Both the position numbers and the translations under genes were made by a program. The notes beneath the pieces were generated by a model. That model saw only the letters and a program-made list of their open reading frames with translations, did no database searches and was not told the origin of the DNA. Source: Actinomycetota bacterium (lineage in GTDB: Bacteria; Actinomycetota; Acidimicrobiia; IMCC26256; VFJJ01). From it: a DNA stretch of 45,933 nt. Shown piece after piece: positions 16,074 through 32,765 of the stretch. Location: positions 1 to 45,933 of the forward strand of contig VFJJ01000035.1 in assembly GCA_009886115.1 (NCBI GenBank). Reading direction: 5' to 3'. Numbering within the stretch: the stretch's first letter is position 1; the number at the start of each line of letters is the position of its first letter.

Positions 16074-17687
16074 GTGAAGGAGATCGTCGGCATCATGGTG
16101 GAATCGGACGAGGCTCGATCGTTGGGGCCTGGCGCGCGCCACCTGCTGCTGGTCGCCGGCGCCGTGGCGGTCGTGGTGTCGATGGGATCCATGGTCGCGG
16201 TCGGATCTGCGCTGTGGCTCGACGAGGCCCTCTCGGTCGAGATCGCGCGTCTGCCCCTCGGAGATCTCGAGCAGGCGCTGAGGATCGACGGGGCCCCGCC
16301 GCTGTACTACGTGCTGCTCCACGCCTGGATGTCGATCTTCGGCGACGGCGACACGGCGGTCAGGGGCCTGTCGGCCGTCTTCGCCGTCGGCACCCTGCCC
16401 CTGGCGTGGTACGCCGGCCGCCGCATCGGCGGAGCCTCGGGGGCGGTCGCCGCGGTGCTGGTGTTCGCCACCTCGCCGTACCTCGTTCGATACGGGTCCG
16501 AGACCCGCATGTACTCCGCAGTGATCTTCCTGGTGGTCGCCGGGTACCTCGCCATCGTGCGGGCGTGGGAGCGACCGTCGTCATACGGTCGGCTTGCCCT
16601 GCTCGGCGCGATCTGCGGGCTGCTCGTGCTCACGCAGTACTGGGCGCTCTACCTGTTGCTGGCCACGGGGCTCGTGCTCGTCCGCGCCGCGTGGCGCCCC
16701 CGGGAGCCGGCGCTTCGGCGCACCGCCGTCCGGGTGCTCGCAGCCGCGGTGATCGGCTCCGTCGTCTTCATGGCGCCGTGGCTGCCGACGTTCCTCTACC
16801 AGCGGGCGCACACGGGTACGCCCTGGGGACGCCCGGTCCAGCCCTTCCAGGCGTTCATCGACAGCATCACCGACTTCGGGGGTCCCGGCGGGGTCATCAA
16901 GCCCCAGGACACCACGCTCGGAATCATCCTGCTCCTGCTCGGGGTGGTGGCGTTGTTCGCCGTGGGGATCGACGGCCGACGGCTGGAGGTCGACCTCCGG
17001 ACCCGGCCCGCAGCCCGTCCGCTCGCGTTCGTCGCCACGGCCACGCTGACCATCGGCGTCGTGCTGGGGCGCGTCTCGGGGGTGGCCTTCCAGCCCCGCT
17101 ACGCAGCGGTGATCTTCCCGCTGTTCCTGCTGCTCGTGGTGATGGGGCTCATGCAGCTCCGTGACGAGCCGATCCGAGCCGGGGTGCTCGCTGTCGTCGT
17201 CGCCATGGGGCTCTTCGGCGTGGGCCGCAACCTCGTCGTCGACCGGACCCAGGCCGCCGAGCTCGCCGCGGCGATCAATCGTGACGCCGTCCCCGGCGAC
17301 GTGGTCGTGTACTGCCCCGACCAGCTCGGTCCCGACACGCATCGCCTCATCGACGACGAGCTGATCGCCGGGGGACTCGTCGAGGTCACGTTCCCTGACC
17401 TCGAGCCGCCGACCCGCATCAACTGGGTCAGGTACGCCGAGCGCAACGCCATCGGTGGCGAGGCCGTCGCCGCCGTCGCCCAGCGGGTCGTCGAGCGGGC
17501 CACCCCGACCGGTGCCGTCTGGCTCGTGTGGAACCCGACCTACAAGCACCTCGAGGGTCGCTGCGAGCAACTGATCGACGGGCTCAACGCGCAACGCCCG
17601 GGCCTCGAGCAGCGGATCGTGGGCGCCGACACGGCGCTCTACGAGAACGCATACCTGTACCGCTGGGCTCCGGTGACGGTTCCGTGA
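16074..17687 (+). CDS. GT-C fold glycosyltransferase (ArnT/GT39-like) membrane protein
   Basis: A 537-residue polytopic membrane protein of the GT-C superfamily, which uses polyprenyl-phosphate sugars outside the membrane. The first outer loop carries the acidic WLDEALSVEIAR motif (res ~47-59) typical of GT39/ArnT-like enzymes. APPLYYVLLHAW follows. About 10-11 helices extend to ~390, and a ~150-residue soluble outer domain at the C-terminus ends in YLYRWAPV. Sugar and acceptor are unknown. The start may be GTG 16074 or ATG 16095 (AAGGAG 12 bases upstream). It overlaps the next gene by GTGA, so the two are translationally coupled. First gene of the envelope-glycan region. Confidence 0.85.
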   Translation: MKEIVGIMVESDEARSLGPGARHLLLVAGAVAVVVSMGSMVAVGSALWLDEALSVEIARLPLGDLEQALRIDGAPPLYYVLLHAWMSIFGDGDTAVRGLSAVFAVGTLPLAWYAGRRIGGASGAVAAVLVFATSPYLVRYGSETRMYSAVIFLVVAGYLAIVRAWERPSSYGRLALLGAICGLLVLTQYWALYLLLATGLVLVRAAWRPREPALRRTAVRVLAAAVIGSVVFMAPWLPTFLYQRAHTGTPWGRPVQPFQAFIDSITDFGGPGGVIKPQDTTLGIILLLLGVVALFAVGIDGRRLEVDLRTRPAARPLAFVATATLTIGVVLGRVSGVAFQPRYAAVIFPLFLLLVVMGLMQLRDEPIRAGVLAVVVAMGLFGVGRNLVVDRTQAAELAAAINRDAVPGDVVVYCPDQLGPDTHRLIDDELIAGGLVEVTFPDLEPPTRINWVRYAERNAIGGEAVAAVAQRVVERATPTGAVWLVWNPTYKHLEGRCEQLIDGLNAQRPGLEQRIVGADTALYENAYLYRWAPVTVP

Positions 17688-18928
17688 GCCTCGTCGCCGG
17701 GGTGATCCGACGCGCGAGGGTCCGGGCTCGCGCCCGTGTCGTCGCCTTCGTGCACGAGCGGGCGCCGGAGCTCCCGGGCGCGTCGGCGCCGAGGCGGTCC
17801 TGGAAGTGCGACGCCCGGGCCGTCGTGCCGGCCTGGGTGCTCACCCGGTTGGTCGTGCTCGGATCGCTGGGCTTCTCCCACGTCGTCTACAACCGGTTCG
17901 AGGAACAGAACCCGGGCGTCGGGCTCCGGGCGCCCGTCCAGCTCCGCGACGGGTTGGTCGCCTGGGACGGCACCTGGTATCGCGACATCGCCGACGGGGG
18001 CTACGAGGCCACGAGCAACGTGCGCGAAGGTCTCCGGTTCTTCCCGCTCTGGCCGGTGCTGGGCAAGGTCTTCTCGTACCCGTTCGGTGGCAACACCAAC
18101 GTGTCGCTCGTGGTGCTCGCCAACGTCATCGCCTTCGCCCTCCTCGTCGTGCTCTACCGGTTCGTGGCCCTCGAACGGGGTGTCGAGCTCGCATCGCGCG
18201 CGGTCTGGTTGCTGTCGATCGCACCGCTGGCCTTCGTGCTCGTGCTGGCCTACAGCGAAGCCCTGTCGATGACCTTGACGGTGCTCTCGTTCTGGGCGCT
18301 GCGGACCCGGCGCTGGCGGTGGGCTGCGCTGTTCGGCTTCTTCGTGGGCCTCACGCGTCCCTTCGGGCTGCTGCTGGCGATCCCGGCGTTCGTCGAAGGC
18401 CTGCGCGGCATCGCCACCTCGGGGTGGCGCGACCGGGCCTGGCGTCTGGTCCCGGCGGTGGCTCCGGCCGTGGGGTGCGGCGTCTATCTCTCATGGGTCA
18501 AGGCCGAGCACGATTCCTTCCTCCTGCCGTTTCGCATCCAGTCGAAGGCGTTCGGCCGGGGCTTCGACTACCCATGGGCCCGTTGGTGGCGGGCGTTCCA
18601 CGACGGTGTCACCGGCAACGTCAACGAGATCCTCCACGCCGGCTGGGTCGTGGTGCTCGTGGTGCTGATCGTGGTGCTGGCCCGGCGCTGGCCGGCCTCG
18701 TACACGTGGTTCTGCGTCGCCGTGCTCCTGGTCGCCGTCAGCGCCGACAACATCAACTCAGCCGAGCGCTACTGCCTCTCGGCGTTCCCGTTCATCCTGG
18801 CGGCGGCCGAGTTGACCGTGAATCCTCGACTCGTCCGATGGCGCCTCGACGTGCTCGTCGCTCCGCTGGCCGTCACCGGCCTCACGGTGTACTCGGTGCT
18901 CACCTTCCTCGGCGGATACGTTCCCTAG
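17684..18928 (+). CDS. PIG-V-like mannosyltransferase family membrane protein
   Basis: A 414-residue GT-C protein. WDGTWYRDIADGGY (94-107) followed by FFPLWP (119-124) is the hallmark of the PIG-V/mannosyltransferase family, in which the aspartate pair is catalytic. About nine or ten helices follow, and SADNINSAERYCLSAFPF near the C-terminus matches the family's last motif. Bacterial members probably move mannose from polyprenyl-phosphate-mannose onto lipids or wall polymers. A polyprenol-phosphate mannose synthase is encoded at 37584-38453, which could supply the donor. The basic 50-residue N-terminus is cytoplasmic. GTG 17684 overlaps the upstream stop. Confidence 0.85.
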   Translation: MSLVAGVIRRARVRARARVVAFVHERAPELPGASAPRRSWKCDARAVVPAWVLTRLVVLGSLGFSHVVYNRFEEQNPGVGLRAPVQLRDGLVAWDGTWYRDIADGGYEATSNVREGLRFFPLWPVLGKVFSYPFGGNTNVSLVVLANVIAFALLVVLYRFVALERGVELASRAVWLLSIAPLAFVLVLAYSEALSMTLTVLSFWALRTRRWRWAALFGFFVGLTRPFGLLLAIPAFVEGLRGIATSGWRDRAWRLVPAVAPAVGCGVYLSWVKAEHDSFLLPFRIQSKAFGRGFDYPWARWWRAFHDGVTGNVNEILHAGWVVVLVVLIVVLARRWPASYTWFCVAVLLVAVSADNINSAERYCLSAFPFILAAAELTVNPRLVRWRLDVLVAPLAVTGLTVYSVLTFLGGYVP

Positions 18929-19073: not shown

Positions 19074-20531
19074 ATGACGACACCCGCGCCTGCACCCGGC
19101 GACCTCAAGGTCGTCATCATCGGTGCCGGCCCTGCCGGCCTCACCGCTGCCTATCAACTGGGCAAGGCCGGTGTGACCTCGACGATCCTCGAATCCGACG
19201 ACGTCGTCGGCGGCATCAGCCGGACGGTCGTTCGCGACGGCTGGCGCTTCGACATCGGCGGCCACCGGTTCTTCACCAAGGTCCGCCCCGTCGAAGACCT
19301 CTGGTTCGAGATCCTGGGCAAGGACGACTTCCTGCTCCGACCTCGGCTGAGTCGCATCTTCTACAAGGGCAAGATGTTCGACTACCCGCTCCGGGCCAAG
19401 AACGCCCTGTTCGGCCTGGGGCTGCTCGAGGCGTTCCTGTGCGTCATGTCGTACATCTGGGTGCGCATCCGTCCGCCGAAGGACCAGACGAACTTCGAGG
19501 GTTTCGTCGCCTCCCGGTTCGGCTGGCGTCTGTACCGGACCTTCTTCAAGACCTACACCGAGAAGGTCTGGGGCATGAAGGCCACCGAGATCCAGGCCGA
19601 CTGGGGCGCCCAGCGCATCAAGAACCTGTCGCTGTTTCGCGCCGTCTGGGAGTCGCTCAAGCCCCAGAGCTTCCGCCTGCGCAACAAGGACAAGTCCAAG
19701 CAGGTGACGAGCCTCATCGAGGAGTTCAACTACCCGAAGTACGGCCCGGGCATGATGTGGGAACGTTGTCATGAGCTCTGCGAGGCCCAGGGTTCGAAGG
19801 TCTGGTTCAACAGCCGGGTCACCACCGTCCATCATGACGGCGGACGGGTCACCGGTGTCACGGCGCTGGTCGACGGAGTGCCCACCCGCATCGAGGCCAC
19901 CCACGTCATCTCGTCGATGCCCATCAGCCATCTGCTCCAGGGCATGGACCCCCCGGCGCCGGCCGAGGTGGTCTCAGCAGCCGGCGGGCTCGCCTACCGT
20001 GACTTCATGACCGTCGCCCTGGTCGTGCCCGAGGAGTTCGGCTTCCCCGACAACTGGATCTACATCCACGACCCCGCGGTCTCGGTCGGGCGCATCCAGA
20101 ACTTCGGGCAGTGGTCGCCGTACCTCGTCAAGGAAGGCCGCACCTGTCTCGGTCTCGAGTACTTCGTCTTCGAGGGCGACGACATGTGGACCAAGTCCGA
20201 CGCCGACCTCGTCGAGCAGGGCAAGCGGGAGTTGACGAAGCTGGGGCTGGTCGACGGCACCAAGGTCGAGGCCGGCTACGTGGTGCGCATCCCCAAGGCC
20301 TATCCCACCTATGACGGGAGCTACAAGGCCAACATCGAGACCATGCGCGGGTGGCTCGATGCCAACGTCGCCGGCGTGTACCCCACCGGGCGCAACGGCA
20401 TGCACAAGTACAACAACCAGGACCACTCGATGTACACCGCCATGCTCTCGGTCGAGAACATCCTCGGTCAGGGCGACCACGACGTGTGGACGGTCAACGT
20501 CGAGGAGGAGTACCACGAGGAAAAGGCCTGA
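19074..20531 (+). CDS. FAD-dependent oxidoreductase, UDP-galactopyranose-mutase/amine-oxidase-like
   Basis: A 485-residue flavoprotein. The FAD-binding Rossmann motif is GAGPAG (17-22) with Glu40 for the ribose. GGISRT (46-51) and GGHRFFTK (62-69) resemble the UDP-galactopyranose mutase/protoporphyrinogen-oxidase family. The C-terminus has the FAD-contacting stretch YPTGRNGMHKYNNQDHSM. Proteins of this group are often found in glycan clusters as NAD(P)/FAD-dependent oxidoreductases. A role in making a furanose or modified sugar for the arabinan/galactan polymer is plausible, but the canonical mutase active-site residues cannot be confirmed by eye. The gene after it starts 7 bases downstream. 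Confidence 0.82.
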   Translation: MTTPAPAPGDLKVVIIGAGPAGLTAAYQLGKAGVTSTILESDDVVGGISRTVVRDGWRFDIGGHRFFTKVRPVEDLWFEILGKDDFLLRPRLSRIFYKGKMFDYPLRAKNALFGLGLLEAFLCVMSYIWVRIRPPKDQTNFEGFVASRFGWRLYRTFFKTYTEKVWGMKATEIQADWGAQRIKNLSLFRAVWESLKPQSFRLRNKDKSKQVTSLIEEFNYPKYGPGMMWERCHELCEAQGSKVWFNSRVTTVHHDGGRVTGVTALVDGVPTRIEATHVISSMPISHLLQGMDPPAPAEVVSAAGGLAYRDFMTVALVVPEEFGFPDNWIYIHDPAVSVGRIQNFGQWSPYLVKEGRTCLGLEYFVFEGDDMWTKSDADLVEQGKRELTKLGLVDGTKVEAGYVVRIPKAYPTYDGSYKANIETMRGWLDANVAGVYPTGRNGMHKYNNQDHSMYTAMLSVENILGQGDHDVWTVNVEEEYHEEKA

Positions 20532-20538
20532 CCTGTCG

Positions 20539-21474
20539 GTGCCCGCTCGACGCCTCATCGCTGGGTTGGCCGCGGTCGCGCTCTCGGGCGGGCTGGGAGC
20601 CTGTGAGTATCCGGGCTTCGGCGATTCCGAGCCCAAGGCCGCCGACTCCGGGGCCGAAGGGAGCGTCGCCGCCATCCCTGCGCCCGTGGAACACGCGGTG
20701 GAGGCTCTCGAGGGCGAGCCGGCGTCGGTGGTGATCGAGGCCGCACCGATGATCGAGACGGGCGCGGCCCCGCTCGTCCCGGAGCGGGTCATGTTCGTCG
20801 GCGATTCCGTGATGGGTGAGGTCGCGCTCTCGGCCGGCGCTGCCCTCTCGGCCAGCGTCGGAACCACATCGGTGGGGCACCGGCTGCAGGTGGGCGTGCT
20901 CGGTCTCGGCGACGGCTGGCGCGAGCGTTGGGCGAGCGATCTCGCCGGGCTCCGTCCCGACACCGTCGTCGTGATGGTGGGTCCGTGGGATCTCAACGAC
21001 GCCACCCGCCCCGATGGCACGGTGTGGCGTCTGGGCGATCCCGGCTTCCTCGACTGGTACCGTGCCGAGCTGCACGCCTGGGTCGACACGCTCACCGCGT
21101 CCGGCTCGGAGGTGCTCTGGCTCAGCGTCCCGCCCGTTCGTGACGCGGTCCTGGCGGCACAGCTCCAGCCGATCGACGCCGAGTTCCGGTTGCTGGCGGC
21201 CGATCGCCCCGATGTCGAGTACCTCGACACTGCCATCCTGGTGGGCGATCCGTCAGGCGCCTACCTCGAGCGAGATCCGGCGTCGAACGTCGCCCTGCGC
21301 ATGACCGACGGGTTGCACCTGTGCCCGGAAGGGGCGGCCCGGATCGCCGACGCCGTGGTCGCTCACCTGGGCGTGGGACCGATCGACCCGGCCGCGTGGC
21401 GCGACGGGGCCTGGCGCCTCGATGCCGAGCGCTTCGACCCGGCCAACTGCCCCGAGCCCGCGCCAACCATCTGA
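20539..21474 (+). CDS. SGNH hydrolase-family lipoprotein (copy A)
   Basis: A 311-residue exported protein. A short basic start and hydrophobic stretch end in a lipobox with Cys22 (LGAC), so it is membrane-anchored outside. SGNH blocks: FVGDSVM with Ser90, GPWDLND as block III, and DGLHLCPEGA with Asp257 and His260. It shares with three other proteins here a Cys right after the catalytic HL and a tail W...W..D.RF....CP. SGNH enzymes of this type remove or transfer acetyl and other acyl groups on polysaccharides. GTG 20539 follows the flavoprotein stop by 7 bases. The catalytic set is complete, so it is probably active. Confidence 0.85.
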   Translation: MPARRLIAGLAAVALSGGLGACEYPGFGDSEPKAADSGAEGSVAAIPAPVEHAVEALEGEPASVVIEAAPMIETGAAPLVPERVMFVGDSVMGEVALSAGAALSASVGTTSVGHRLQVGVLGLGDGWRERWASDLAGLRPDTVVVMVGPWDLNDATRPDGTVWRLGDPGFLDWYRAELHAWVDTLTASGSEVLWLSVPPVRDAVLAAQLQPIDAEFRLLAADRPDVEYLDTAILVGDPSGAYLERDPASNVALRMTDGLHLCPEGAARIADAVVAHLGVGPIDPAAWRDGAWRLDAERFDPANCPEPAPTI

Positions 21475-21559
21475 GCACCTGTCAGGTGTCGGGTTCAGGG
21501 CCCGTTCAACGCACAGTGCTCGGCCTGGGGGCGGGGGCAGCCCGTACGATCTCGGGTTG

Positions 21560-24280
21560 ATGACGGCGACCGTTCCCGACACTGTGATCGCTCCGGGGCC
21601 GGGAGCGCCGCCGGCCGTCGCTCGACCCCAGTTCTCCTGCCTCGACGGCCTGCGCGCCATCGCGGCGCTCAGCGTGCTCGCCCACCACGTGGGCTTCGAC
21701 ACGGGGGCGACGTTCCGGCACGCTGGCGCGGGCGAGTTCCTCGCCCGTATGGACATCGGCGTCTCGGTCTTCTTCGCGCTCTCGGGATTCCTGCTCTACC
21801 GCCCCATGGTCACAGCGATCGTGGAGGGACGTCCGCTCGTGCCGCTCGGCGAATTCTGGAAGCGCCGGGTGCTGCGGATCTTTCCCGCCTATTGGCTGGC
21901 CCTGTTCGTGATCGTGGTCGCCTTCGGTCGCACGCTCAGCGACATCGGTGACGTCGTGGTGCTCGGGGGGTTGTTGCAGATCTACGACGAGAGCCGCTTC
22001 TTCGGGGGTCTCGTCCAGGCCTGGAGCCTGAGCACCGAGATCAGCTTCTACCTGCTGTTGCCCTTGTACGCCTTGGTGATTCGGCGTCGGCTGGCCGGCC
22101 GCTCAGCCGAGCAGCGGCTCCGGTTCCAACTCGGAGCGATCGTCGTGCTGTACCTCGCGGGCCTGGCCTGGCGGATGCTCCTGCTCGGCGCCGACCCTCC
22201 GGGGATCGCCCGCATCGGCCTCCACTGGCTCCCCGGCCAGATCGACCACTTCGCGATCGGCATGGCGCTGGCGGTGGTGTCGGTGTGGGCCGGCCGTTCC
22301 CCGGCGGTGGCCGAGCGCCTCGAGCGCTCCACTACGCGCCCGTGGATCTGGTGGTCGGGGGCGGCCGCCGCGTTCTGGGCCGTGAGCGTGCCGCTCGACG
22401 TCCCCGGGGGGCTGGCGCAGATCCCGGCCGGGACCGACCTGGTCCGCCAGTTCCTCTACGGACTGGTGGCCTTCTTGCTCTTGGCCCCGGTGATCGTCGA
22501 ACCCGGGGTCCGGGGCGGCTCCGGCGGCTCCGGCGGCTCCGGTGGTCGCTCGGGCATCAGGCGATTCCTCGCGCATCCGGTCATGTGGTGGATGGGCGTG
22601 ATGTCGTACGGGATTTACCTGTGGCACAAGGACCTGATCCCCAAGGTGCAACTGCTGCTCGGGTGGGAGAACTTCCAAGGCAACTGGTTCGTGGTCTTCG
22701 GCATCACGCTGGCGGCCAGCACCGCGATCGCCGCGCTGAGCTACTACCTGCTCGAGCAGCCGCTGATCGCCCGCAAACACGGCCGCGCCGCCCGACCGGC
22801 GACGGTGTGGACGGGCCTCCTGCCCGACGCCGATGCGGACGCCGATGCGGACGCCGACGCGGACGCCGAGGCGGGCGCGGTACCCGGTGCGGTGGCCGTG
22901 CTGCCCGGGCGCAGGCCCCGAGCTGGCGACGGGGCCGAGCATCGCCCCACGTTCTGGCGGCGGGTGATCGTCGTCACGCTCGTCGGGCTGGTGCTGCGGA
23001 TGGCGTACCTGTGGTTCTCTCGTCGGGGCATCTACGACTGCCCGCCCGAGACCCTGCTCGGGTGCGCCGGCGACTCGTACGTGTACCACACGGGCGCCAA
23101 CCTCATCGCCGACGGTCAGGGGTTCGTGTCGCCGCTGGGCCTGCTCGACGGCAACCGCTTCCCCGGCGCCGATCATCCGCCGCTGTACTGGCTGTACCTG
23201 GCGGCGTACTCGTTCGTCGGCCTCGACAGCTACACCTGGCATCAGATGGCCACGGTGCTCGCCGGGGTCGCGGCGATCCCGGTGGCGGCCCTGGTGGGCC
23301 GCGAGCTCGGGGGTGTGCGGGTCGGGCTGGCGGCGGCGATCGCCGTGGCGCTGTACCCGAACATCTGGATCAACGACGCGCTCGTGCTGTCGGAGACCCT
23401 CACGATCCTGCTCGTCCTCGTGGCACTACTGGCCACCTACCGGGTGTGGCGACAGCCGTCGGCCGCGAACGTGGCCCTTCTCGGACTCGCCGGTGCTGCC
23501 GGTGCTCTCACCCGGGCCGAGGTGGTGCTCGTGTACCCGTTCGTCGTGCTGCCGCTGCTGGCTCGGCACCGTGCCCTGGCCACGTGGGGGCGACGGATCG
23601 CCCTGCTGGCTCTGGCGGGCGGCGTCGGCCTCGCCGCCATGGCGCCCTGGCTGATTCGCAACCAGCGCCAGTTCGAGGAGCCGGTGTACCTCTCCACGGG
23701 GCTCGGTGTCACGCTGCGCTACGCCAACTGCGACCAGACGTATTCCGGTCGGCTCATCGGCTATTGGTGGTTCGAGTGCAAGGGCGATGTCGACCTGCAG
23801 GCCCTCGCCGACCAGTCGGTGCTCGACAAGGCCTTGCGCTCGCAGGCCATCGACTACATCGAGGCCCACAAGAATCGGCTCCCGGCCGTGCTCGCGGCCC
23901 GTTTCGGGCGCACGTGGGGCCTCTACAAGGTCAACCAGATCGCCTACCTCGACACGTTCGAGCACCGACCGCTGTGGGCGACGCGCCTGGGCGCGATCAG
24001 CTTGTACCCGGCCATGGCCTTCGCCGCCTTGGGCATGCTCGTGCTGCGCCGCCGCCGAGTTCCCGTGTACCCGTTGCTCGTCCCGCTTGGAATCGTCACC
24101 TTTGCCGTGCTCTTGACCTTCTCCCAGACCCGGTACCGCTCGACGGCGGAGGGGTCCCTGGCGGTGCTCGCTGCCGTCGGCATGCTGCGGACGGTCGAGG
24201 TGGCTCGGGCTCGCCGTCAGCGAGGCCGGGGGTCGGGATCGGTCGCCGACCGGCAGCCTTCGCCGCCGTCCCAGGCGTAG
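21560..24280 (+). CDS. Acyltransferase-3 / GT-C glycosyltransferase fusion
   Basis: A 906-residue membrane protein combining two enzymes. Residues ~25-415 are an acyltransferase-3 (OafA-like) domain: LDGLRAIAALSVLAHH with the conserved His42/His43, DIGVSVFFALSGFL, and late SYGIYLWH and SYYLLEQPL. A charged Asp-Ala linker (423-440) leads to a GT39-like domain from ~464 with RMAYLWFSRRG, GDSYVYHTGANLIADG, ADHPPLYW and FSQTRYRSTAEGS. The second half is clearly paralogous to the stand-alone glycosyltransferase at 25313. Inside the acyltransferase half, a GGSGGSGGSGG loop lies in a cytoplasmic or outer loop. TACGAT lies 9 bases before ATG 21560. The 3' end overlaps the opposite SGNH gene by 64 bases. 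Confidence 0.86.
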   Translation: MTATVPDTVIAPGPGAPPAVARPQFSCLDGLRAIAALSVLAHHVGFDTGATFRHAGAGEFLARMDIGVSVFFALSGFLLYRPMVTAIVEGRPLVPLGEFWKRRVLRIFPAYWLALFVIVVAFGRTLSDIGDVVVLGGLLQIYDESRFFGGLVQAWSLSTEISFYLLLPLYALVIRRRLAGRSAEQRLRFQLGAIVVLYLAGLAWRMLLLGADPPGIARIGLHWLPGQIDHFAIGMALAVVSVWAGRSPAVAERLERSTTRPWIWWSGAAAAFWAVSVPLDVPGGLAQIPAGTDLVRQFLYGLVAFLLLAPVIVEPGVRGGSGGSGGSGGRSGIRRFLAHPVMWWMGVMSYGIYLWHKDLIPKVQLLLGWENFQGNWFVVFGITLAASTAIAALSYYLLEQPLIARKHGRAARPATVWTGLLPDADADADADADADAEAGAVPGAVAVLPGRRPRAGDGAEHRPTFWRRVIVVTLVGLVLRMAYLWFSRRGIYDCPPETLLGCAGDSYVYHTGANLIADGQGFVSPLGLLDGNRFPGADHPPLYWLYLAAYSFVGLDSYTWHQMATVLAGVAAIPVAALVGRELGGVRVGLAAAIAVALYPNIWINDALVLSETLTILLVLVALLATYRVWRQPSAANVALLGLAGAAGALTRAEVVLVYPFVVLPLLARHRALATWGRRIALLALAGGVGLAAMAPWLIRNQRQFEEPVYLSTGLGVTLRYANCDQTYSGRLIGYWWFECKGDVDLQALADQSVLDKALRSQAIDYIEAHKNRLPAVLAARFGRTWGLYKVNQIAYLDTFEHRPLWATRLGAISLYPAMAFAALGMLVLRRRRVPVYPLLVPLGIVTFAVLLTFSQTRYRSTAEGSLAVLAAVGMLRTVEVARARRQRGRGSGSVADRQPSPPSQA
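22513..22551. repeat. 9-base repeat encoding a Gly-Gly-Ser loop
   Basis: Repeated GGCGGCTCC units inside the acyltransferase-3 half, encoding GGSGGSGGSGG. A natural flexible loop between membrane helices, likely to vary in length. Confidence 0.8.
22826..22879. repeat. Tandem tract encoding the Asp-Ala interdomain linker
   Basis: Repeated GACGC(C/G) GATGC(C/G) units encode about eight Asp-Ala pairs exactly at the boundary between the acyltransferase and glycosyltransferase halves. Confidence 0.85.
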
Positions 24281-25203
24281 CGGTCGTCGGCGCGCCAGGC
24301 GCCCTCGGTCCAGGTCGGCTCGGGTTCGAGGCCGAGCTGCTCGGCGATGGGCCGGAGGGCCGCCGCTGCGAAGCGCTCGGCGCCCTCGGCGCAGAGGTGC
24401 TTGCCGTCGGGCTTGCGTAGGCGCACCCCGGGCTCGGCCAGCTCGAGATGGCGCCCGTCGGGCCCGGCGAGCGCCCCAGCGGCGTCGACGTAGGTGACGG
24501 CGTCGTGGCGCTCGGCCAGGGCCGCGAGCTCGGCGTTGAGCGCCGCCACGGCCGCGTCGGAGCCGTGCAGCTCGGGCTGGCCCTGCCAGAGCATGCCCAG
24601 CCACACCACCGAGGCCCCGCGGGCTGTGAGCGCTCCCGCGGCCTGGTCGAGCAGACCGCCGTACCAGTTGCTCCAGATCGGATCGCCCGGTCCCCGCGCG
24701 GTGCCGTCGACCGGCCGGGAAACGACGTCGTGCGGGCCCACGGTGACGATCACCACGTCGGGATCGAGCTCCGCGACGTACTGCGGCCACAGGGTGGTCC
24801 AGTCGCGCCACTCGGGACGGGTGAGCCCGAAGCCCCAGTACGACTCGTCGCGTACGACGACCGGGCCGATGGCTCCGAGCGCCGCCTGCACGGCCGGGCT
24901 GGCGTCCCACATGATCCCGTCGCCGAGCAGCAGCACCCTCAGCGGCTCGGCGGCGGTGGGGGAGGGCAGCGTTGGCGGGGCGGCCGACGGTGGCTCGGTC
25001 GGTGGCACGGTCGGCGGCACGGTCGCCGGCCTCGCCGCAGGCGGGGTGGCTTGGCTACCGGTGGTCGTGGGTTCCGCCGCCCGATTCACCGCGACCGGAC
25101 GAGGCTCGGGTGCGCTTCGGGGCTCGGCGGGTCCACACGCCGCGAGGCCCAGGCCCATGGCGACGAGCGCGGCGACGGAAGCGGCGAACCTGGAGTGGAC
25201 CAC
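24217..25203 (-). CDS. SGNH-family lipoprotein lacking the catalytic serine (copy B)
   Basis: A 328-residue lipoprotein (lipobox LAAC, Cys23) with a Pro/Thr-rich linker (~45-85) and an SGNH fold. Block I reads LLGDGIMWD: Gly96 replaces the nucleophilic Ser (codon GGG at 24916-24918). Block III is VGPHD, and block V DGKHLCAEGA keeps Asp266 and His269. The subfamily tail with W...W..D.RY and a late Cys is present. It may therefore be a pseudoenzyme that binds glycan, or may use another nucleophile. GTG 25203 is preferred over the longer frame because it starts directly before a good lipoprotein signal. Its 3' end overlaps the acyltransferase-glycosyltransferase gene by 64 bases, tail to tail. 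Confidence 0.83.
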   Translation of the reverse strand: MVHSRFAASVAALVAMGLGLAACGPAEPRSAPEPRPVAVNRAAEPTTTGSQATPPAARPATVPPTVPPTEPPSAAPPTLPSPTAAEPLRVLLLGDGIMWDASPAVQAALGAIGPVVVRDESYWGFGLTRPEWRDWTTLWPQYVAELDPDVVIVTVGPHDVVSRPVDGTARGPGDPIWSNWYGGLLDQAAGALTARGASVVWLGMLWQGQPELHGSDAAVAALNAELAALAERHDAVTYVDAAGALAGPDGRHLELAEPGVRLRKPDGKHLCAEGAERFAAAALRPIAEQLGLEPEPTWTEGAWRADDRYAWDGGEGCRSATDPDPRPR

Positions 25204-25298
25204 GCCGCCAAGTATCTCGCGTTGACGCGGGTGCGTTCGATGGCGACGGGCGATGTGCGTGGTTCGCGCGGTCACGGTGGTCGCGGGAGGCTCCCGGC

Positions 25299-25304
25299 TA
25301 TCGT
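25299..25304 (+). promoter_or_regulatory. -10 box (TATCGT), leaderless promoter
   Basis: TATCGT, 8 bases, then GTG 25313. Lies in the 109-base gap between the divergent SGNH copy B and glycosyltransferase genes. Confidence 0.45.
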
Positions 25305-25312
25305 CGCCCGTC

Positions 25313-26755
25313 GTGGCCATCCCGTCCCTCAACGCCGATCGGCGATTCGTCCTCCGCCTGCTGGTGGTCGTCGCCATGGCGTTCGCTCTGCGGATGGCCT
25401 ACTTCTGGTTCTCGCGCAAGGGCGTGTGCGACTTCACGTACCCGCTCGACTACTTCTACAGCCCGGGCTGTCCGGGCGACAGTTCGGTGTACCACCACGG
25501 GGCCAATCTGCTGGCCGACGGGTTGGGCTTCATCGTCCCGACCGACTACTTCGCCAGTGGCGGTACCACGCTCAAGGCCGGAGCCGATCATCCCCCGCTG
25601 TTCACGCTGCTGCTCGCCGCGTTCTCGTGGATCGGGCTCGACTCGTGGTCGTGGCACGCGATCGTGACGGTGCTCATCGGGACTGCCACCGTGGCTGTCA
25701 CCGGTCTCTTCGTGCGCGACATCTTCGGATCACGCGCCGGGCTCATCGCTGCGGCGCTGGTGGGCGTGTACCCGTTCATGTGGTTGAACGACGGGCTGGT
25801 CCTCTCGGAAGGGCTGTCGATCCAACTGGTGGTGTGGGTCACCTGGCTGGCCCACCGGTTCTGGCGGGCACCCGGGTGGCGACCGGCTCTCGGGCTCGGC
25901 GTGGCGTGCGGCGCAGGGATGCTGACCCGGGCCGAGGCCGGGCTTTTCCTGCCCCTGGTGGTGCTCCCGATCATCCTGATGACGCAAGCGTCGTGGCGGC
26001 AGCGCTTCGTGCACGCGTTGACCGTGGGGGTGGCGGCGATCGTGGTTGTCGCGCCCTGGGTCGGTCACAACCTCACCCGGTTCAACCACCCGACCACGCT
26101 GTCGACGGGCTTCGGGATCACCCTGGCCAACACCAACTGCGACGACACGTACTACGGCGGCGGGCTCGGATACTGGTCGTTCCGATGCATCGGCGAGGTG
26201 CCCCGGGGCCCTGCGCTCGATCAGTCCGACGACGAGAAGTTCCTTCGCCAGAAGGGGCGTGACTACATCGCCAGTCACAAGGCGCGTCTGCCCGTCGTGG
26301 TGCTGGCCCGCCAGGGGCGGGTCTGGAACGTCTTTCGTGTGGGCCAGAACGTCACGTTCGACGTCGGCGAGGGTCGGCCGCAGTGGGCGACCGGTCTGGG
26401 TCTGGCCACCTACTACCCGTTCATGGTCCTGGCCGCTGTCGGGGCCGCGGCCGTCCGCCGCCGCCGGATCCCGGTGCTGCCGCTGCTGGCCCCGCTGGCG
26501 ATCGTGGCGATCAGCGCGTCGCTGGCGTTCGGCCAGGCCCGCTACCGCACCACAGCCGAAGCGTCGATCGCCATCTTGGCGGCGTTGGGCGTCGAGTCGC
26601 TCTGGGACCGTCTCCGACGCTGGGGAGCCGATCGGGAGGGCGACCGGGACACCGGCCGGGACACCGGTCGGGGCTCAGCCGGGGTCACAGGCTCCAACGG
26701 GATCGGCGACGTAGATGGGGTCGCCCGTCCAGGGGCCGAGGTCCCAACCGGGTGA
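25313..26755 (+). CDS. GT-C glycosyltransferase (GT39-like), paralogue of the fusion's second half
   Basis: A 480-residue polytopic membrane protein. It shares with the fusion protein ending at 24280 the motifs LRMAYFWFSRKG, GDSSVYHHGANLLADG.GF, GADHPPLF, LTRAEAGL, LSTGFGITLANTNCDDTY and FGQARYRTTAEAS, so the two arose by duplication. GT39-like enzymes take sugar from a polyprenyl-phosphate carrier outside the membrane. Cys pairs in the outer loops (CDF..., SPGCPGDS, TNCDD, FRCIGE) may form disulfides. The start at GTG 25313 is supported by a -10 box; an upstream frame from 25253 is less likely. The last 81 bases overlap the opposite SGNH gene (copy C). Confidence 0.85.
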   Translation: MAIPSLNADRRFVLRLLVVVAMAFALRMAYFWFSRKGVCDFTYPLDYFYSPGCPGDSSVYHHGANLLADGLGFIVPTDYFASGGTTLKAGADHPPLFTLLLAAFSWIGLDSWSWHAIVTVLIGTATVAVTGLFVRDIFGSRAGLIAAALVGVYPFMWLNDGLVLSEGLSIQLVVWVTWLAHRFWRAPGWRPALGLGVACGAGMLTRAEAGLFLPLVVLPIILMTQASWRQRFVHALTVGVAAIVVVAPWVGHNLTRFNHPTTLSTGFGITLANTNCDDTYYGGGLGYWSFRCIGEVPRGPALDQSDDEKFLRQKGRDYIASHKARLPVVVLARQGRVWNVFRVGQNVTFDVGEGRPQWATGLGLATYYPFMVLAAVGAAAVRRRRIPVLPLLAPLAIVAISASLAFGQARYRTTAEASIAILAALGVESLWDRLRRWGADREGDRDTGRDTGRGSAGVTGSNGIGDVDGVARPGAEVPTG

Positions 26756-27739
26756 GGGCGGCGGGAGCGCCCAACCCTGGGCGATCAGGGCCTCGTGCAC
26801 GGAGGTCGCGAGCGCGGCCGCGCCGGGGACGCACAGGTGCGCACCATCCTTCTTCCGGGCCCGTACCAGGGCGCCGGAGGCATCGTCGATGTAGTCGCGG
26901 TAGTTGCCGAGTGCGTCACCGAGCACCGGCTCCGCATCGAGGTACACGACCCTGCCGGGGAACCGGCCGGGGAGCTCGGCCAAGAGTGCGTTGATCCGTT
27001 CACGATCTCGGTGCTTGCGGGCACCGGGCGTCACGGCTGGCGCCCCGATGAACAGCAGCGTCGCGCCCTGGGCGGTGAGCGTGGCCACGGCCTGGTCGAG
27101 AACCTGCCGGTAGAACCCAGCGCCGTTGAGGCGAGCCATGTCCTCGTCCCACCCGCCGAACATCAACACCACGACCTCGGGCTGCTCGGCATCGACGCTC
27201 GGAGGCCACACGCTCCTCCAGTCGTAGGCCCCGGTGAGCCCGAAGCCCCCGAACGGAGCGAGCCCCTCGGTGGCCACCCGGGCCACGGTCGTCGACTCGA
27301 GCGCGGCCGTGATACCCGGTCGGGCGGTGTTCATGACCGAATCGCCGATGATGGCCACGCGCAGGGGGTCGCCGAGCGAGATCGCCCGCCGTGGACCGAT
27401 GCCGGGCTCGGCCGTTGCCGAGCCGGGGGCCGGCGCCGTGATGGGAGGCCCCGTCCCGGTCGTGGTCTGGGTCGTGGTCGGAGGCGTGGTCGGAGGCGTG
27501 GCCGGAGCCGGAGCCGTGGTGGTCGGATCTGCCGTGGTGGTCGGATCTGCCGTCTGGGCCGTGGATGACGGTGTGAACGCGGCGCTGGCGCCGAGGAGTG
27601 CGACGAGGACGGTCGCGGTTGCGGCGACCAACCGGGAGCCGGCTGGTACCGCCGGTGTGCGACGTCCTGGTCGCACCGTGGGCACGCGGGTCAGCCGGCA
27701 TTGCTCCCGAGCCCCAGGTTCACGCGACGCGGTACTCAC
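26675..27739 (-). CDS. SGNH hydrolase-family protein, membrane-anchored (copy C)
   Basis: A 354-residue protein. One N-terminal membrane helix or uncleaved signal (res ~37-56), then a Thr/Pro-rich linker with an ADPTTT duplication (~64-105), then an SGNH domain: IIGDSVM with Ser134, FGGWDEDM as block III, and DGAHLCVPGA with Asp298 and His301. The subfamily features are DWRSVWP (~173-179), the Cys after the catalytic HL, and a tail with W....W and a late Cys. Catalytic residues are complete. It starts at GTG 27739, 30 bases after copy D, and is the last gene of the three-gene unit 31305 to 26675. Its 3' end overlaps the glycosyltransferase gene. Confidence 0.84.
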   Translation of the reverse strand: MSTASREPGAREQCRLTRVPTVRPGRRTPAVPAGSRLVAATATVLVALLGASAAFTPSSTAQTADPTTTADPTTTAPAPATPPTTPPTTTQTTTGTGPPITAPAPGSATAEPGIGPRRAISLGDPLRVAIIGDSVMNTARPGITAALESTTVARVATEGLAPFGGFGLTGAYDWRSVWPPSVDAEQPEVVVLMFGGWDEDMARLNGAGFYRQVLDQAVATLTAQGATLLFIGAPAVTPGARKHRDRERINALLAELPGRFPGRVVYLDAEPVLGDALGNYRDYIDDASGALVRARKKDGAHLCVPGAAALATSVHEALIAQGWALPPPSPGWDLGPWTGDPIYVADPVGACDPG

Positions 27740-27769
27740 GGCCCCATGCTGTCATGCGCCAGGAGAGTG

Positions 27770-28912
27770 TCATGCGTCAGGAGATGGGCACGGCCCGAGC
27801 GCCGCCGGCGCGAACCGGGGATCGAGCGTCCATTCGTCGGTGGACCAGGCCTCGACGGGCTCGGGCAGGTCCCAGTGCTCGCTTAGCGACTGCAGCGTCG
27901 CACGGGCGAATCGCGCGGCGCCGGAGGGACAGAGGTGGACGCCATCGCTCATGCGGACGCGCTCGGTTGCGCCGTCGGGACCGGGGAGATCGAACGCGAA
28001 GCGTCCGTCGACGCCGGTGAGGAACGGCTCCGGGGCCACGTACGAGACGACATCGGCAAACCGCGTCGGGAGCTGGGCGAACACCTCGTTGACGGCGTGG
28101 CGTGCGCGCTCGTCGTCGAGGAACCAGGCATTGGGGGCCGCGCCGACCCAGACGATCTCGGCGCCGCCCGCTCCCAGGATCCGCACGGCGTGCTCGACGA
28201 TGCCCTGGTACCAGTGCTGTCCGTTGGCGTCGACGGCGGCACCGTCGCCGGGCCCGACGTGGACGATCACCACCTCGGGATCGACGCGCTCGATGATCGC
28301 CGGCCACTCGCTGCGCCAGTCGTAGGCGTCGAGTCGGCTGAGACCGAGATCGGTCACGGCCACCTGCTCGACCACGACCACTCCGGTGGCCTCGAGCGCT
28401 GCCGCGATGGCGATCTCGGCGCCGAGCATCACCGAGTCGCCCACGACGAGCACCCGCAGCGGCGCGGCGGCCGAGACCGTCCGGCGAGGAAAGCCCGGCC
28501 CGAACGGATCGGCCAGCGGAGCGGCCGAGCGGGGCCCCGGCGATGGCGGGGCGGACGGCGCCGAGGTCGTCCCTGGCGTCGGTCCCGGCCCGGGCAGCGT
28601 GGTCGGTTGCACCGCATCGATCGCTGGGACCTGTGAGATCTGCACCGCCGCCGGCGGGGTCGCCGCCCGCTGATCCGATGCCGTTGTCGGCAGCGGGGTG
28701 GCTGCACCCGAGGGCGCGGAGAGCGATGATTGGGCCAGCGCCGGTCGAGGCGGTGGGGTCATGCGGAGGGCGGCCCCCGCAACCACCGCAGCGAGGATCG
28801 CCACGCAGACCGTCGGCCCGATCGAGCCGGGGAACGGGCCGGGCCGATCGGGAGCGCGCTCGGGCCCGACGGTGCTGAGAGGACGGTCGACCCGCGAGGG
28901 GTGGCGCTTCAC
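27770..28912 (-). CDS. SGNH hydrolase-family protein, membrane-anchored (copy D)
   Basis: A 380-residue protein with one N-terminal membrane helix (~33-50), a long Pro/Ala/Ser-rich linker (~52-150) and an SGNH domain: VVGDSVM with Ser160, VGPGDG as block III, and DGVHLCPSGA with Asp323 and His326. LSRLDAYDWRSEWP (~191-204) matches the same stretch in copy C. The tail W...EW..DPRF......CP ends the protein. Catalytic residues are complete, so hydrolase or acyl-transfer activity on a wall glycan is likely. GTG 28912 overlaps the stop of the acyltransferase-SGNH gene (GTGA), so translation is coupled. Confidence 0.85.
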   Translation of the reverse strand: MKRHPSRVDRPLSTVGPERAPDRPGPFPGSIGPTVCVAILAAVVAGAALRMTPPPRPALAQSSLSAPSGAATPLPTTASDQRAATPPAAVQISQVPAIDAVQPTTLPGPGPTPGTTSAPSAPPSPGPRSAAPLADPFGPGFPRRTVSAAAPLRVLVVGDSVMLGAEIAIAAALEATGVVVVEQVAVTDLGLSRLDAYDWRSEWPAIIERVDPEVVIVHVGPGDGAAVDANGQHWYQGIVEHAVRILGAGGAEIVWVGAAPNAWFLDDERARHAVNEVFAQLPTRFADVVSYVAPEPFLTGVDGRFAFDLPGPDGATERVRMSDGVHLCPSGAARFARATLQSLSEHWDLPEPVEAWSTDEWTLDPRFAPAALGPCPSPDA

Positions 28913-31305
28913 GACGTGAGGGCCGGGATGATCTGCTCGTCCGTGAGGGTGTCGATGATCCAGCGGGCGACGATGGTCTTGCCCTCGCCGTTACCGTCTT
29001 GCTCGTAGTGCAGCCCGTCGGGACGCAGGCGCACGTCCTCGAACGTGACGCCGCCATCGTCATCCGCGATGGGGAGCGCCACGTTCTTCTTGCAGCCGTC
29101 GTCGAGGTTGTCGGGGTCTTCGCCCGAGCCTTCGCCGGGGCAGACCCACGCGGCCAGGTCCACGAGCACGGCGCCGTCGTCGGCGTGGCGCTCGACGGCC
29201 GCCCGGTAGATGCGGTTCAGGCAGTCGACGCGCTCGTCGACCTCGTCGGCATCGACCCCGTACAGGTCAGATCGGGGCTCGCGCACATAGGCCACCGTCA
29301 TCACGGCGACCGTGGCGCCACCGGCGCCCAGGACCCCGAGGGCATCGTCGACCTCGCCGGCGAACCAGTCGTCGAAGACCGGCTGGCACGGACGCACCCA
29401 TTCACCGTCGAGCTTCCGTTCGGCGATGTCCCAGCCCCCGAACTGGAACACCACGAGCTGGGGCTGGGCCCAGGCGACAGCCGCGGTGTAGCGCTCTTCC
29501 CAGCCGTGGCATCCCGTGTCGGAGCCGGCGCCGAGGATGCGGACGTCGCCGTCGGCGCGTGAGAGCCCGCATCCCGATGCTGCCTGGTTGTCGACCCAGA
29601 GTCCGCCGTGCTCGTCGAGGATCGTCTCGAAGCCGAGGAAGGTGGACACCCCGAGCGAGTCGCCGACGATCGTGATGCGGTACCGCCCATCCGACTCGGG
29701 CGGTCCGGCCAGCAGCGACGGATCGGGACGGGTCGCCCCGGTGGCCCCGGTGGTGTCGGCGGTGTCGGTGGTGTCGGTGGACGGGGCGGTGACCCCCGGC
29801 CCGGTCGCCCCGCTCGAGGGCGTGCCGGTTCCCGTGCCCGGTGTCGGTGCGCCCGGTGTCGGGCCCGTGGGTGTTCCCGGGGCGACGGTGGGCACCGTGG
29901 GGATCGACGGGCCGGCGAGGTTGTCGGCCGTCGCCCCGTCGGTGCTCACGACCAGCGCCGCGATCACCACGGCCACCGCGGCGACGGGGGCGGCGACCGT
30001 CTGCCAGCCGTGGATCCAGCGACCCTTCCGGATGGGCTGCTCCAACAGGTAGTACGACGCCATGGCGATGCCCATCGACACCGCGTAGCGCACGAGCGAG
30101 AGCTGCCAGCCCGACCAGCCCGTGCGGTCGGGGTTGAGCACCACGAACACCGGCCAGTGCCACAGGTACAGCCCGTAGGAGATGAGGCCCAGGTACCGCA
30201 GCGCCGGCGTGGCGAGCACCTTCGAGACCGGACCCTGGACCGGATGGGCGACGGCGGCGATCACGATCGCGGCCAGCACCCCGCACAGGAGCAGGCCACC
30301 CTCGAACAGGCCCGGGGTGGGGTACTCGACCGTGACCCAGGCGAAGACCAGCCCGGCGAGCGCGAGCGCAGCCGCGACCTCGAGGACGGTGCGGCCGGCC
30401 CGGGAGGCCACCGGTCCCCGCCAGGCCACCCAGATCGCCAGGACCGCTCCGATGAGGATCGACGACGCCCGGGTGTCGGAGCCGAGATACACCCGGTTGA
30501 CGTCGGTCACGTCGTGATGGCGCAGCACCATGTAGGCCGCCGAGGCGACCATCCCGACGGTCGTGCACACCGCGAGCACGGCGAAACCGGCTCCGGGCCG
30601 TGCCGGTGCCGGTGCCGACGGGCCGCCGGCGTCGAGATCACCGAGTGCACCGTGGGCACCGTGGGCCCCGTCGCGGCGGGCCTGCACCCGGCGCCGACCG
30701 AGATGCAACAAGACGAACACGAGCAGCGGCCAGACGACGTAGAACTGCTCCTCGACGGCGAGGCTCCACATGTGCTCGAGCGGCGATGGCGTGCCCCCGA
30801 GGGCGTAGCCGCCGCCGCTGAAGATGGCGTTCCAGTTCGCCACGTAGAACAGGGCGTAGAGGCCGTCCTTGCGGATCACCTCGAGCTGGGAGTCGGGCGC
30901 GAACCAGACGGCGAACAGGCCCATCGCGGCCAGCACCACCAGCACCGCGGGCAGGAGCCGGCGGGCCCGGCGCGACCAGAACGTCTTGAGCGAGATGGCG
31001 CCGGTGCCAGTCCACTCGGCGAGGAGCAACGACGTGATGAGAAAGCCCGAGAGGGTGAAGAAGAGGTCGACACCGAGATAACCACCCACGAGCCGACCGT
31101 CGCGATCGCCGTTCCACAGGGGAGCGTCGTGGAAGAAGACGACGGCGGCCACCGCGGCGCCCCTGAGCCCGTCGAGACCGGGCATGTGCTTGAGCCGGGC
31201 GTGGCTCGGGCGCGATGGCGAGTTGGCATCGACGGACGCAGCCGCGGTCGGAGCCCGAGAGGGAACCCGAGGCGCATCGGCGATTCGGCTGGACAGGTCG
31301 ACCAT
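28909..31305 (-). CDS. Acyltransferase-3 / SGNH fusion (OafB-like O-acyltransferase)
   Basis: A 798-residue O-acyltransferase of the OafA/OafB type. Residues ~40-450 are the ten-helix acyltransferase-3 domain (LDGLRGAAVAAVVFFHD, YLGVDLFFTLSGFL, HMWSLAVEEQFY, SYGLYLWHWPVF, SYYLLEQPIR). A Pro/Thr/Gly linker (~470-535) leads to an outer SGNH domain with IVGDSLG (Ser550), FGGWD, and DGLHYEQDG (Asp763, His766). The family moves acyl groups, usually acetyl, from the cytoplasm onto surface polysaccharide or wall. Unlike the four stand-alone SGNH proteins it lacks the HLC cysteine and Trp/Cys tail. ATG 31305 has AGGAG 10 bases upstream. First gene of a three-gene operon. Confidence 0.9.
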   Translation of the reverse strand: MVDLSSRIADAPRVPSRAPTAAASVDANSPSRPSHARLKHMPGLDGLRGAAVAAVVFFHDAPLWNGDRDGRLVGGYLGVDLFFTLSGFLITSLLLAEWTGTGAISLKTFWSRRARRLLPAVLVVLAAMGLFAVWFAPDSQLEVIRKDGLYALFYVANWNAIFSGGGYALGGTPSPLEHMWSLAVEEQFYVVWPLLVFVLLHLGRRRVQARRDGAHGAHGALGDLDAGGPSAPAPARPGAGFAVLAVCTTVGMVASAAYMVLRHHDVTDVNRVYLGSDTRASSILIGAVLAIWVAWRGPVASRAGRTVLEVAAALALAGLVFAWVTVEYPTPGLFEGGLLLCGVLAAIVIAAVAHPVQGPVSKVLATPALRYLGLISYGLYLWHWPVFVVLNPDRTGWSGWQLSLVRYAVSMGIAMASYYLLEQPIRKGRWIHGWQTVAAPVAAVAVVIAALVVSTDGATADNLAGPSIPTVPTVAPGTPTGPTPGAPTPGTGTGTPSSGATGPGVTAPSTDTTDTADTTGATGATRPDPSLLAGPPESDGRYRITIVGDSLGVSTFLGFETILDEHGGLWVDNQAASGCGLSRADGDVRILGAGSDTGCHGWEERYTAAVAWAQPQLVVFQFGGWDIAERKLDGEWVRPCQPVFDDWFAGEVDDALGVLGAGGATVAVMTVAYVREPRSDLYGVDADEVDERVDCLNRIYRAAVERHADDGAVLVDLAAWVCPGEGSGEDPDNLDDGCKKNVALPIADDDGGVTFEDVRLRPDGLHYEQDGNGEGKTIVARWIIDTLTDEQIIPALTS

Positions 31306-31478
31306 CTGGTGGATGCTCCTGGTGGATCACAGGGCCGCTCGGCGTCCGCTCAGGCTACCGGCCGACAGCCGTGCGCCCTGAGGCACTCCGACCCTTCCGG
31401 GGAGGTTGTTCTTGCTTGTCCCGATCATTCTCGGCTCTCGGAGGCTGCGCTACCCTCGGCGGTTCTTGCCCCTCTCGC

Positions 31479-31484
31479 CGGAGG
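31479..31484 (+). promoter_or_regulatory. Ribosome binding site (CGGAGG) fixing TTG 31491
   Basis: CGGAGG, 6 bases before TTG 31491. A TACCCT at 31451-31456 may be the -10 box. Confidence 0.5.
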
Positions 31485-31490
31485 CCGTCG

Positions 31491-32765
31491 TTGGCGCCCT
31501 CGCCCGAGTACCGCCCGTCCACCCGACAGACCCGTGACCCCGAGGCGACGCTCGACCTCGGCTTGGCCTCGGGCGCGCTCGGCGACATCGCCGCCGAGGC
31601 CGGCCTGCGGCGGATCAACATGCTCGCGTGGCGCGATCTCGACGATCCCGAGGCCGGCGGCAGTGAGATCCACGCCGACCACATCGCCCGTCTCTGGTCC
31701 GCCGCCGGTATCGACGTCTCGGTGCGCACCTCGGGCGTCGTCGGGGCTCCGGCGCACGTCGACCGCTCGGGCTATCACGCTCTCCGGGCGGGTGGACGCT
31801 ACGGCGTGTTCCCCCGGGCTGCTGCGGCCGAGGCGCTCGGACGGCACGGCCCTCGCGACGGCCTGGTGGAGATCTGGAACGGCATGCCGTTCTTCTCGCC
31901 GTTGTGGGCCCGGGGGCCGCGGATCGTCTTCTGCCATCACGTGCACGCCGAGATGTGGCGGATGGTGCTGCCGCCGTGGAAGGCCCGCATCGGTGAGTTG
32001 ATCGAGTTCCGCCTCGCTCCTCCGCTGTACCGCGGTACCCGGATCGTGACGCTCTCGTCGTCGTCGCGCGACGAGCTGGTCGGCGACCTGGGCTTCCGTG
32101 AGGAGCTGGTGACCGTGGTGGCGCCGGGGATCGACCCGAAGTTCCGTCCCGGGGGCCGGCGATCGCAGCACCCGTCGGTGGTCGCCGTGGGTCGGCTCGA
32201 GCCCGTCAAGCGGTTCGATCTGCTCGTCGACGCCCTCGCCGAGCTCCGACGGCGTCATCCGGCGTTGCAAGCGACCATCATCGGCGAAGGCAGCGAGCGG
32301 GATGCGCTCGAGGCGCAGATCGCCGCGCTCGGTGCGTCGGAGTGGCTGCGACTTCCCGGACGGGTCGACGACGACACGCTCGTGAGGGCCTACCAAGAGG
32401 CGTGGACCGTGGTGTCGACGTCGAAGCGCGAGGGCTGGGGCATGACCCTCACCGAGGCCGCGGCCTGCGCGACGCCGGCCGTCGCGTCACGCATCGCCGG
32501 TCACGAGGACAGCGTCGAGCACGGGGTGAGCGGGCTGCTGGCGACCGACGACGAGTTCGTGACCCGTCTCGACGCCGTGCTCGGTGAGCCCGAGCTGCGA
32601 GATGCCCTGTCGCGTGGCGCCGAGGCCCGTGCCGCCCGATTCACCTGGCAGGCCACAGCCGAGGGAACCTTGACGGCCCTTGCCCACGAGGCGCACCGGT
32701 ATCGCCACCGGGCCCGGAACGCCCAGCGCCGGCACAGCTTTCGCAGGACGCCACCGTCCGAGTGA
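31491..32765 (+). CDS. GT4 family glycosyltransferase
   Basis: A 424-residue GT-B enzyme of family 4. Retaining GT4 signature EGWGMTLTE with Glu314 and Glu322 (EX7E), and VGRLEPVKRFDLLVDAL (the start of the second Rossmann domain). N-terminal residues 45-60 (AWRDLDDPEAGGSEIH) resemble the GGSE.H motif of mannosyl- and glucosyltransferases acting on lipid or wall precursors. Cytoplasmic, using nucleotide sugars. It starts at TTG because of a strong ribosome binding site, and overlaps the AftD-like gene by GTGA, so the two products are made together. It probably builds part of the carrier-linked sugar that the membrane enzymes use. Confidence 0.88.
   Translation: MAPSPEYRPSTRQTRDPEATLDLGLASGALGDIAAEAGLRRINMLAWRDLDDPEAGGSEIHADHIARLWSAAGIDVSVRTSGVVGAPAHVDRSGYHALRAGGRYGVFPRAAAAEALGRHGPRDGLVEIWNGMPFFSPLWARGPRIVFCHHVHAEMWRMVLPPWKARIGELIEFRLAPPLYRGTRIVTLSSSSRDELVGDLGFREELVTVVAPGIDPKFRPGGRRSQHPSVVAVGRLEPVKRFDLLVDALAELRRRHPALQATIIGEGSERDALEAQIAALGASEWLRLPGRVDDDTLVRAYQEAWTVVSTSKREGWGMTLTEAAACATPAVASRIAGHEDSVEHGVSGLLATDDEFVTRLDAVLGEPELRDALSRGAEARAARFTWQATAEGTLTALAHEAHRYRHRARNAQRRHSFRRTPPSE

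Follow-up and report, generated by a model that had tools for sequence, protein, structure and literature searches.

A subfamily of PatB-type SGNH domains with a paired cysteine and a C-terminal Trp/Cys tail in an envelope-glycan locus of Acidimicrobiia

Results

SGNH genes of the locus

The window analysed in this work is the whole 45,933-nucleotide stretch of contig VFJJ01000035.1 (assembly GCA_009886115.1) of an Actinomycetota bacterium belonging to the class Acidimicrobiia. It contains four genes for stand-alone SGNH proteins, named here SGNH1 to SGNH4, which, unlike proteins of the OatA/OafA type, are not fused to an AT3 domain, and one gene for an AT3-SGNH fusion (Table 1). Between the stop codon of AT3-SGNH and the GTG start codon of SGNH4 there is an overlap of 4 bases, and SGNH3 lies 30 bases beyond SGNH4. 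The open reading frame listed for SGNH2 spanned 24217-25377; the GTG at 25203, located ahead of the lipobox signal, is the probable start.

Table 1. Features of the SGNH locus (positions refer to the window)
Feature	Position	Strand	Remarks
PMT_2-type GT-C	16074..17687	+	
PIG-V-like GT-C	17528..18928	+	weak Pfam match
FAD-dependent amine-oxidase-family protein	19074..20531	+	recurrent in H-x-C loci
SGNH1, stand-alone DUF459/PatB-type SGNH	20539..21474	+	lipoprotein-like, LGAC lipobox; GDS; H-L-C Cys262; tail Cys304
AT3 domain fused to PMT_2-type GT-C domain	21560..24280	+	same fusion in L177
SGNH2, stand-alone SGNH without catalytic Ser	24217..25203	-	GDG; LAAC lipobox; H-L-C and tail Cys
Gly codon GGG at the catalytic-Ser position of SGNH2	24916..24918	-	
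PMT_2-type GT-C glycosyltransferase	25253..26755	+	paralogue of the C-terminal half of 21560-24280
SGNH3, stand-alone SGNH	26675..27739	-	GDS; H-L-C Cys303; tail Cys351
SGNH4, stand-alone SGNH	27770..28912	-	GTG start; GDS; H-L-C Cys328; tail Cys375
AT3-SGNH fusion	28909..31305	-	SGNH part without H-x-C and without tail
GT4-type glycosyltransferase	31215..32765	+	
AftD-like arabinofuranosyltransferase (GT-C_AftD and CBM)	32762..37657	+	the genome's only copy

In all four stand-alone proteins an N-terminal signal or lipobox is followed by a low-complexity, mostly Pro/Thr-rich linker and then by the SGNH domain. All four matched the Pfam family PF04311 (DUF459/PatB) with E values of 1e-22 to 1e-26 and scores of 80.9-93.7 bits (curated cut-off 27.2), and three of them also matched Lipase_GDSL_2. 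SGNH2, SGNH3 and SGNH4 are 31-38% identical to SGNH1, and the four proteins lie on long, separate branches of the tree, which rules out a recent local expansion. The four genes are old, separate lineages.

The original prediction, made by inspecting the sequence, was that the stand-alone proteins form a distinct SGNH subfamily. The alignment bore out its central observation: an H-L-C motif and a C-terminal tail of the form W...W..D..[YF]....C are present in all four, with D-G-x-H-L-C..GA, the two Trp, the Asp and the near-terminal Cys invariant. Block V (D-x-x-H) is likewise invariant. Apart from the lipobox Cys, the H-L-C Cys and the tail Cys are the sole cysteines of the mature domains. The SGNH domain of the AT3-SGNH fusion, as had been noticed, lacks both features; it reads DGLHYEQDG in the His region and has no tail. 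The motif (G/D)(F/L)GL....DWR..WP, which had also been listed as shared by three of the four, lies in the block II region, and it is not a subfamily marker because ordinary DUF459 proteins show GLSRPDFFDWPARL at the same place.

Extent of the subfamily

A profile built from the stretch between H-x-C and the tail was run on a sample of 395 genomes from the same class. It detected at least 43 domains with the tail, spread over 33 of these genomes, the counts being lower bounds as 16 candidates per genome were scored. The best E value outside the window was 7e-24. When a sample of the phylum was searched, all matches fell again in the same class. Within the window's own genome the combination of H-x-C and tail was confined to SGNH1-4 and was absent from the other DUF459 proteins (on C110 and C130). 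The profile search thus substantiates the proposal of a distinct subfamily, and the domains sharing H-x-C and the W/C tail are a real subfamily rather than a chance resemblance.

Approximately 25 of the 43 domains reside in long frames of 646-1266 amino acids, and the four proteins read end to end (L035, L038, L047, L064) are AT3-SGNH fusions carrying the subfamily domain at their C-terminus. About 17 members, including SGNH1-4, are stand-alone proteins. The contrast seen in the window between stand-alone domains with a tail and a fused domain without one is therefore a local accident, most members elsewhere being AT3-SGNH fusions. A tree constrained to contain the 44 members as a single clade was not rejected (p-AU 0.76, tested on an alignment from which the tail and the Cys column had been removed), and it beat the free quick tree in score. 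A single origin of the members is plausible, although not proven.

One further member, the fusion L035 (JAGWYK010000001.1), comes from a metagenome-assembled genome labelled Acidobacteria, where the gene stands beside AftD and PMT2 genes. It branches inside the members from the window's class, and its placement would reflect either misbinning or horizontal transfer. Tandem SGNH domains within single open reading frames were observed in L142 (G013:C74), L131 (G024:C50) and L251/L252 (G050:C47). Our literature search found no paper joining Acidimicrobiia and SGNH.

The cysteine pair

Exactly two cysteines were present in 42 of the 45 H-x-C domains, in almost all cases the H-x-C Cys and the tail Cys. 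The exceptions were two domains with a third Cys and L150, which belongs to another family. Among the proteins compared we saw no W/C tail without H-x-C, and in ordinary DUF459 proteins lacking H-x-C, cysteines after the His are few and of a different kind. It must be noted that the search supplying many of the members used a profile containing both H-x-C and the tail, hence it was biased toward pairing; a whole-domain profile used within the order found SGNH1-4, L052 and L064, a smaller and less biased set, all with both features. Because the two cysteines are strictly paired and are the only ones in nearly all domains, they are likely to form a structural disulfide, as originally proposed, and this is the most likely explanation of their co-occurrence.

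The H-L-C Cys alone does not mark the subfamily, since the order contains a second SGNH family (L225-L251, e.g. L226, L233, L250) that has H-[FL]-C-P and no tail. In this family the partner seems to be a loop Cys located shortly after H-[FL]-C, just before the next helix (CPVYSSGA). H-x-C by itself is thus not diagnostic, and the tail Cys and loop Cys patterns would both fit a structural disulfide at the H-x-C Cys.

No VKOR or Thioredoxin_4 (DsbA-like) protein was found in the window's own draft genome, which is 95.6% complete, and this counts against the disulfide. The sole DSBA match, overlapping open reading frame 1034-1603 of L224, was rejected as disulfide machinery: neither a signal peptide nor a CxxC was visible in the protein, which seems to be cytoplasmic.

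The active site and SGNH2

SGNH1, SGNH3 and SGNH4 have GDS in block I, and with their retained Ser-Asp-His they can, as far as the sequence tells, form an acyl-enzyme. Block I of SGNH2 reads GDG, which the original inspection had not noticed. Three orthologues of SGNH2 were identified in other genomes of another family; they are 33-45% identical to SGNH2, score far above all other sequences and form a supported clade with it (98/97). GDG is present in 4/4 of these proteins, all of which also have G.HD. A sequencing error as the source of GDG is thereby ruled out, and the substitution is a conserved loss of the nucleophile. SGNH2 and its orthologues are most likely non-catalytic proteins that bind or position a glycan or a partner protein.

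Block III reads GPWD, GPHD, GGWD and GPGD in the window, with Trp, His or Gly in place of the Asn of GxND, and in most subfamily members the position is occupied by Trp. In PatB this Asn is part of the oxyanion hole (PMC12148441). Its absence counts against a transferase, although the argument is softened by OafA and OafB, which likewise lack the GxND Asn (PMC7448272).

Fold and tail

A profile search of the PDB returned PatB/DUF459 at 1e-39 to 1e-40. Two AlphaFold2 models (pLDDT 91.6 and 86.2), made for the domains of SGNH4 and SGNH1, matched PatB with Z scores of 23.3 and 21.5, the next family scoring 17.5 and 15.7, and superimposed on PatB with rmsd values of 1.9 and 2.1 over 193-195 residues.

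The model of the SGNH1 tail is fairly confident, with a mean pLDDT of 90 over residues 221-230 and of 70 over residues 231-239; for the tail of SGNH4 the values are lower (76, then 56). Among the matches listed, the tails of the two models were unaligned to any PDB chain, which is no proof of novelty. In the SGNH4 model a helix (residues 187-205) is followed by 28 residues leading to Cys233. This predicted geometry allows the tail to return to the H-L-C Cys, without demonstrating that it does so. The tail may close over the active site, as originally proposed.

Gene neighbourhood

Among 17 examined loci encoding H-x-C domains, 13 contained AftD, a PMT_2-type GT-C, the FAD protein, GT4 or a second AT3, and glycan genes were absent from the remaining four. 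Of ten control DUF459 loci only one scored, itself only an AT3-SGNH, and glycosyltransferases were found in none (0/10). Gene order is kept in L177, a locus from another family, which has AftD, the AT3-PMT2 fusion, the GDG-type SGNH2, PMT2 and AT3-SGNH(HLC). A single AT3-SGNH(HLC) gene stands there in the place occupied in the window by SGNH3, SGNH4 and the tail-less AT3-SGNH. The SGNH1-4 genes thus sit in a conserved envelope-glycan locus characterized by AftD-like, GT-C, GT4 and AT3 genes.

Two further peculiarities of the locus deserve mention. The in-frame fusion of AT3 to a PMT_2-type GT-C, an unusual joining of acyl carrier and glycosyltransferase, is conserved in a genome of another family (L177:3476-6268). 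There are also convergent 3' overlaps, of 64 bases between AT3-PMT2 and SGNH2 (24217-24280) and of 81 bases between PMT2 and SGNH3 (26675-26755); in L177 the ends of AT3-PMT2 and SGNH2 also meet or overlap.

Discussion

It is instructive to compare SGNH1-4 with the known O-acylation systems. In sequence and fold the best match is PatB (DUF459), the peptidoglycan O-acetyltransferase of Neisseria and Campylobacter, which is, like SGNH1-4, a stand-alone extracytoplasmic SGNH protein. There are clear differences: PatB has the block III Asn where SGNH1-4 have G.WD, GPHD or GPGD, its partner is the MBOAT protein PatA (PMC12148441) whereas the neighbours of SGNH1-4 are AT3 genes, and it lacks the extra Trp/Cys tail. 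The NCBIfam PatB equivalog cut-off is also missed by a wide margin (at most 27 bits vs. 580). AT3-SGNH proteins such as OafA/OafB and OatA have the architecture of most subfamily members, from which SGNH1-4 differ in being unfused. OafA and OafB resemble the subfamily in lacking the GxND Asn and in having disulfides, but the Cys pairs named for them precede block V instead of following it, and their SGNHext is N-terminal (PMC7448272). A third point of reference is SucT, which acts on arabinan. The AT3-SGNH fusion of the window matches the NCBIfam SucT model, but it is not a SucT equivalog because its score of 110.6 bits is below the cut-off of 1275. AlgJ and AlgX of alginate O-acetylation are similar to the window proteins in that more than one SGNH protein serves a pathway, with divided labour (PMC4148444). 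These are circularly permuted SGNH proteins which keep the catalytic triad (PMC9487903), whereas SGNH2 of the window has no nucleophile.

We consider it reasonably probable that SGNH1-4 are extracytoplasmic domains of the PatB/OatA O-acyltransferase kind which, equipped with a disulfide-pinned tail, acylate an arabinan-like surface glycan together with AT3 proteins. In AT3-SGNH proteins AT3 moves the acyl group through the membrane, and the last step, the transfer itself, is believed to fall to the SGNH domain; a protein with AT3 only can also supply a soluble PatB (PMC9558356). Mycobacterial arabinan receives succinyl groups from SucT (PMC10503756). In light of this division of labour and of the activity of SucT, O-acylation of an AftD-dependent arabinan-like glycan seems the most likely function of the system. 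The AT3 domains of the AT3-PMT2 and AT3-SGNH fusions would bring acyl groups out across the membrane, and the SGNH domains, working in trans rather than fused as in most relatives, would move them onto the glycan. SGNH1, SGNH3 and SGNH4 would do so via an acyl-enzyme, the SGNH2 type would serve in binding or positioning the glycan or a partner, and the Trp/Cys tail would be pinned to the Cys two residues past the catalytic His. We infer acyl transfer by SGNH1-4, and an arabinan-like acceptor, from sequence comparisons and gene context; it must be noted that the AftD-like gene is no proof of an arabinan acceptor in this organism.

The role of the tail is the point where another explanation competes best. 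It is a serious possibility that the tail is a segment for surface attachment or for docking to a partner, AT3 or glycan, and is unrelated to any cover over the active site. The tail is present in fused and stand-alone members alike, it contains two conserved Trp residues, which are probably of the sort common in glycan or protein contacts, and it is retained in the GDG clade, which by its sequence has no working active site. Against this, one end of the tail is apparently attached to the H-x-C Cys, close to the catalytic His: if the disulfide exists, part of the tail must be near the rim of the active site.

That SGNH1-4 are instead secreted carbohydrate esterases (de-O-acylases) trimming acyl groups from the glycan appears rather unlikely to us. 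The SGNH fold is mostly hydrolytic, the Lipase_GDSL_2 matches of three of the four proteins point in the same direction, and many esterases appear in the list of fold matches (Z 13-17). However, PatB, the clear top match, is a transferase, and the fusion of most members to an AT3 acyl carrier follows the logic of transfer, not of hydrolysis.

Least probable is that the two cysteines form no disulfide and instead provide, by the catalytic His, a site for a metal or a thiol that relays acyl groups. The H-x-C Cys is indeed only two residues from that His, and the genome yielded no VKOR or Thioredoxin_4 DsbA. A structural disulfide nevertheless fits better with the strict 1:1 occurrence of this Cys together with the distant one of the tail, and with the loop-Cys partner in the second SGNH family. 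The GDG clade, moreover, retains both cysteines without a nucleophile, and in the AT3-SGNH protein OafB mass spectrometry has verified disulfides, although these are located elsewhere (PMC7448272).

Returning to O-acyl transfer, it is tempting to extend the model to an undescribed Acidimicrobiia O-acylation system consisting of an AftD-dependent arabinan-like glycan, AT3 proteins, fused and free SGNH domains with disulfide-bonded tails, and the SGNH2 type as a dedicated glycan-binding or scaffold subunit. We regard this extended model as tentative.

Through this work, what began as a motif seen by eye is now a defined subfamily, and its proposed disulfide can be tested. The conserved loss of the nucleophile in SGNH2 is new and goes beyond the earlier motif observation; it would carry more weight if SGNH2 were proven to be a working subunit. 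With a conserved SGNH protein of this kind it may be possible to tell catalysis in these systems apart from the binding of a glycan or a partner. The subfamily also bears on the question of when a separate SGNH partner replaces a fused one in AT3 systems, as free and fused versions of the same type of domain are found here next to one another. Finally, the locus suggests that Acidimicrobiia, a class whose envelopes have been little studied, possess modified arabinan-like polymers.
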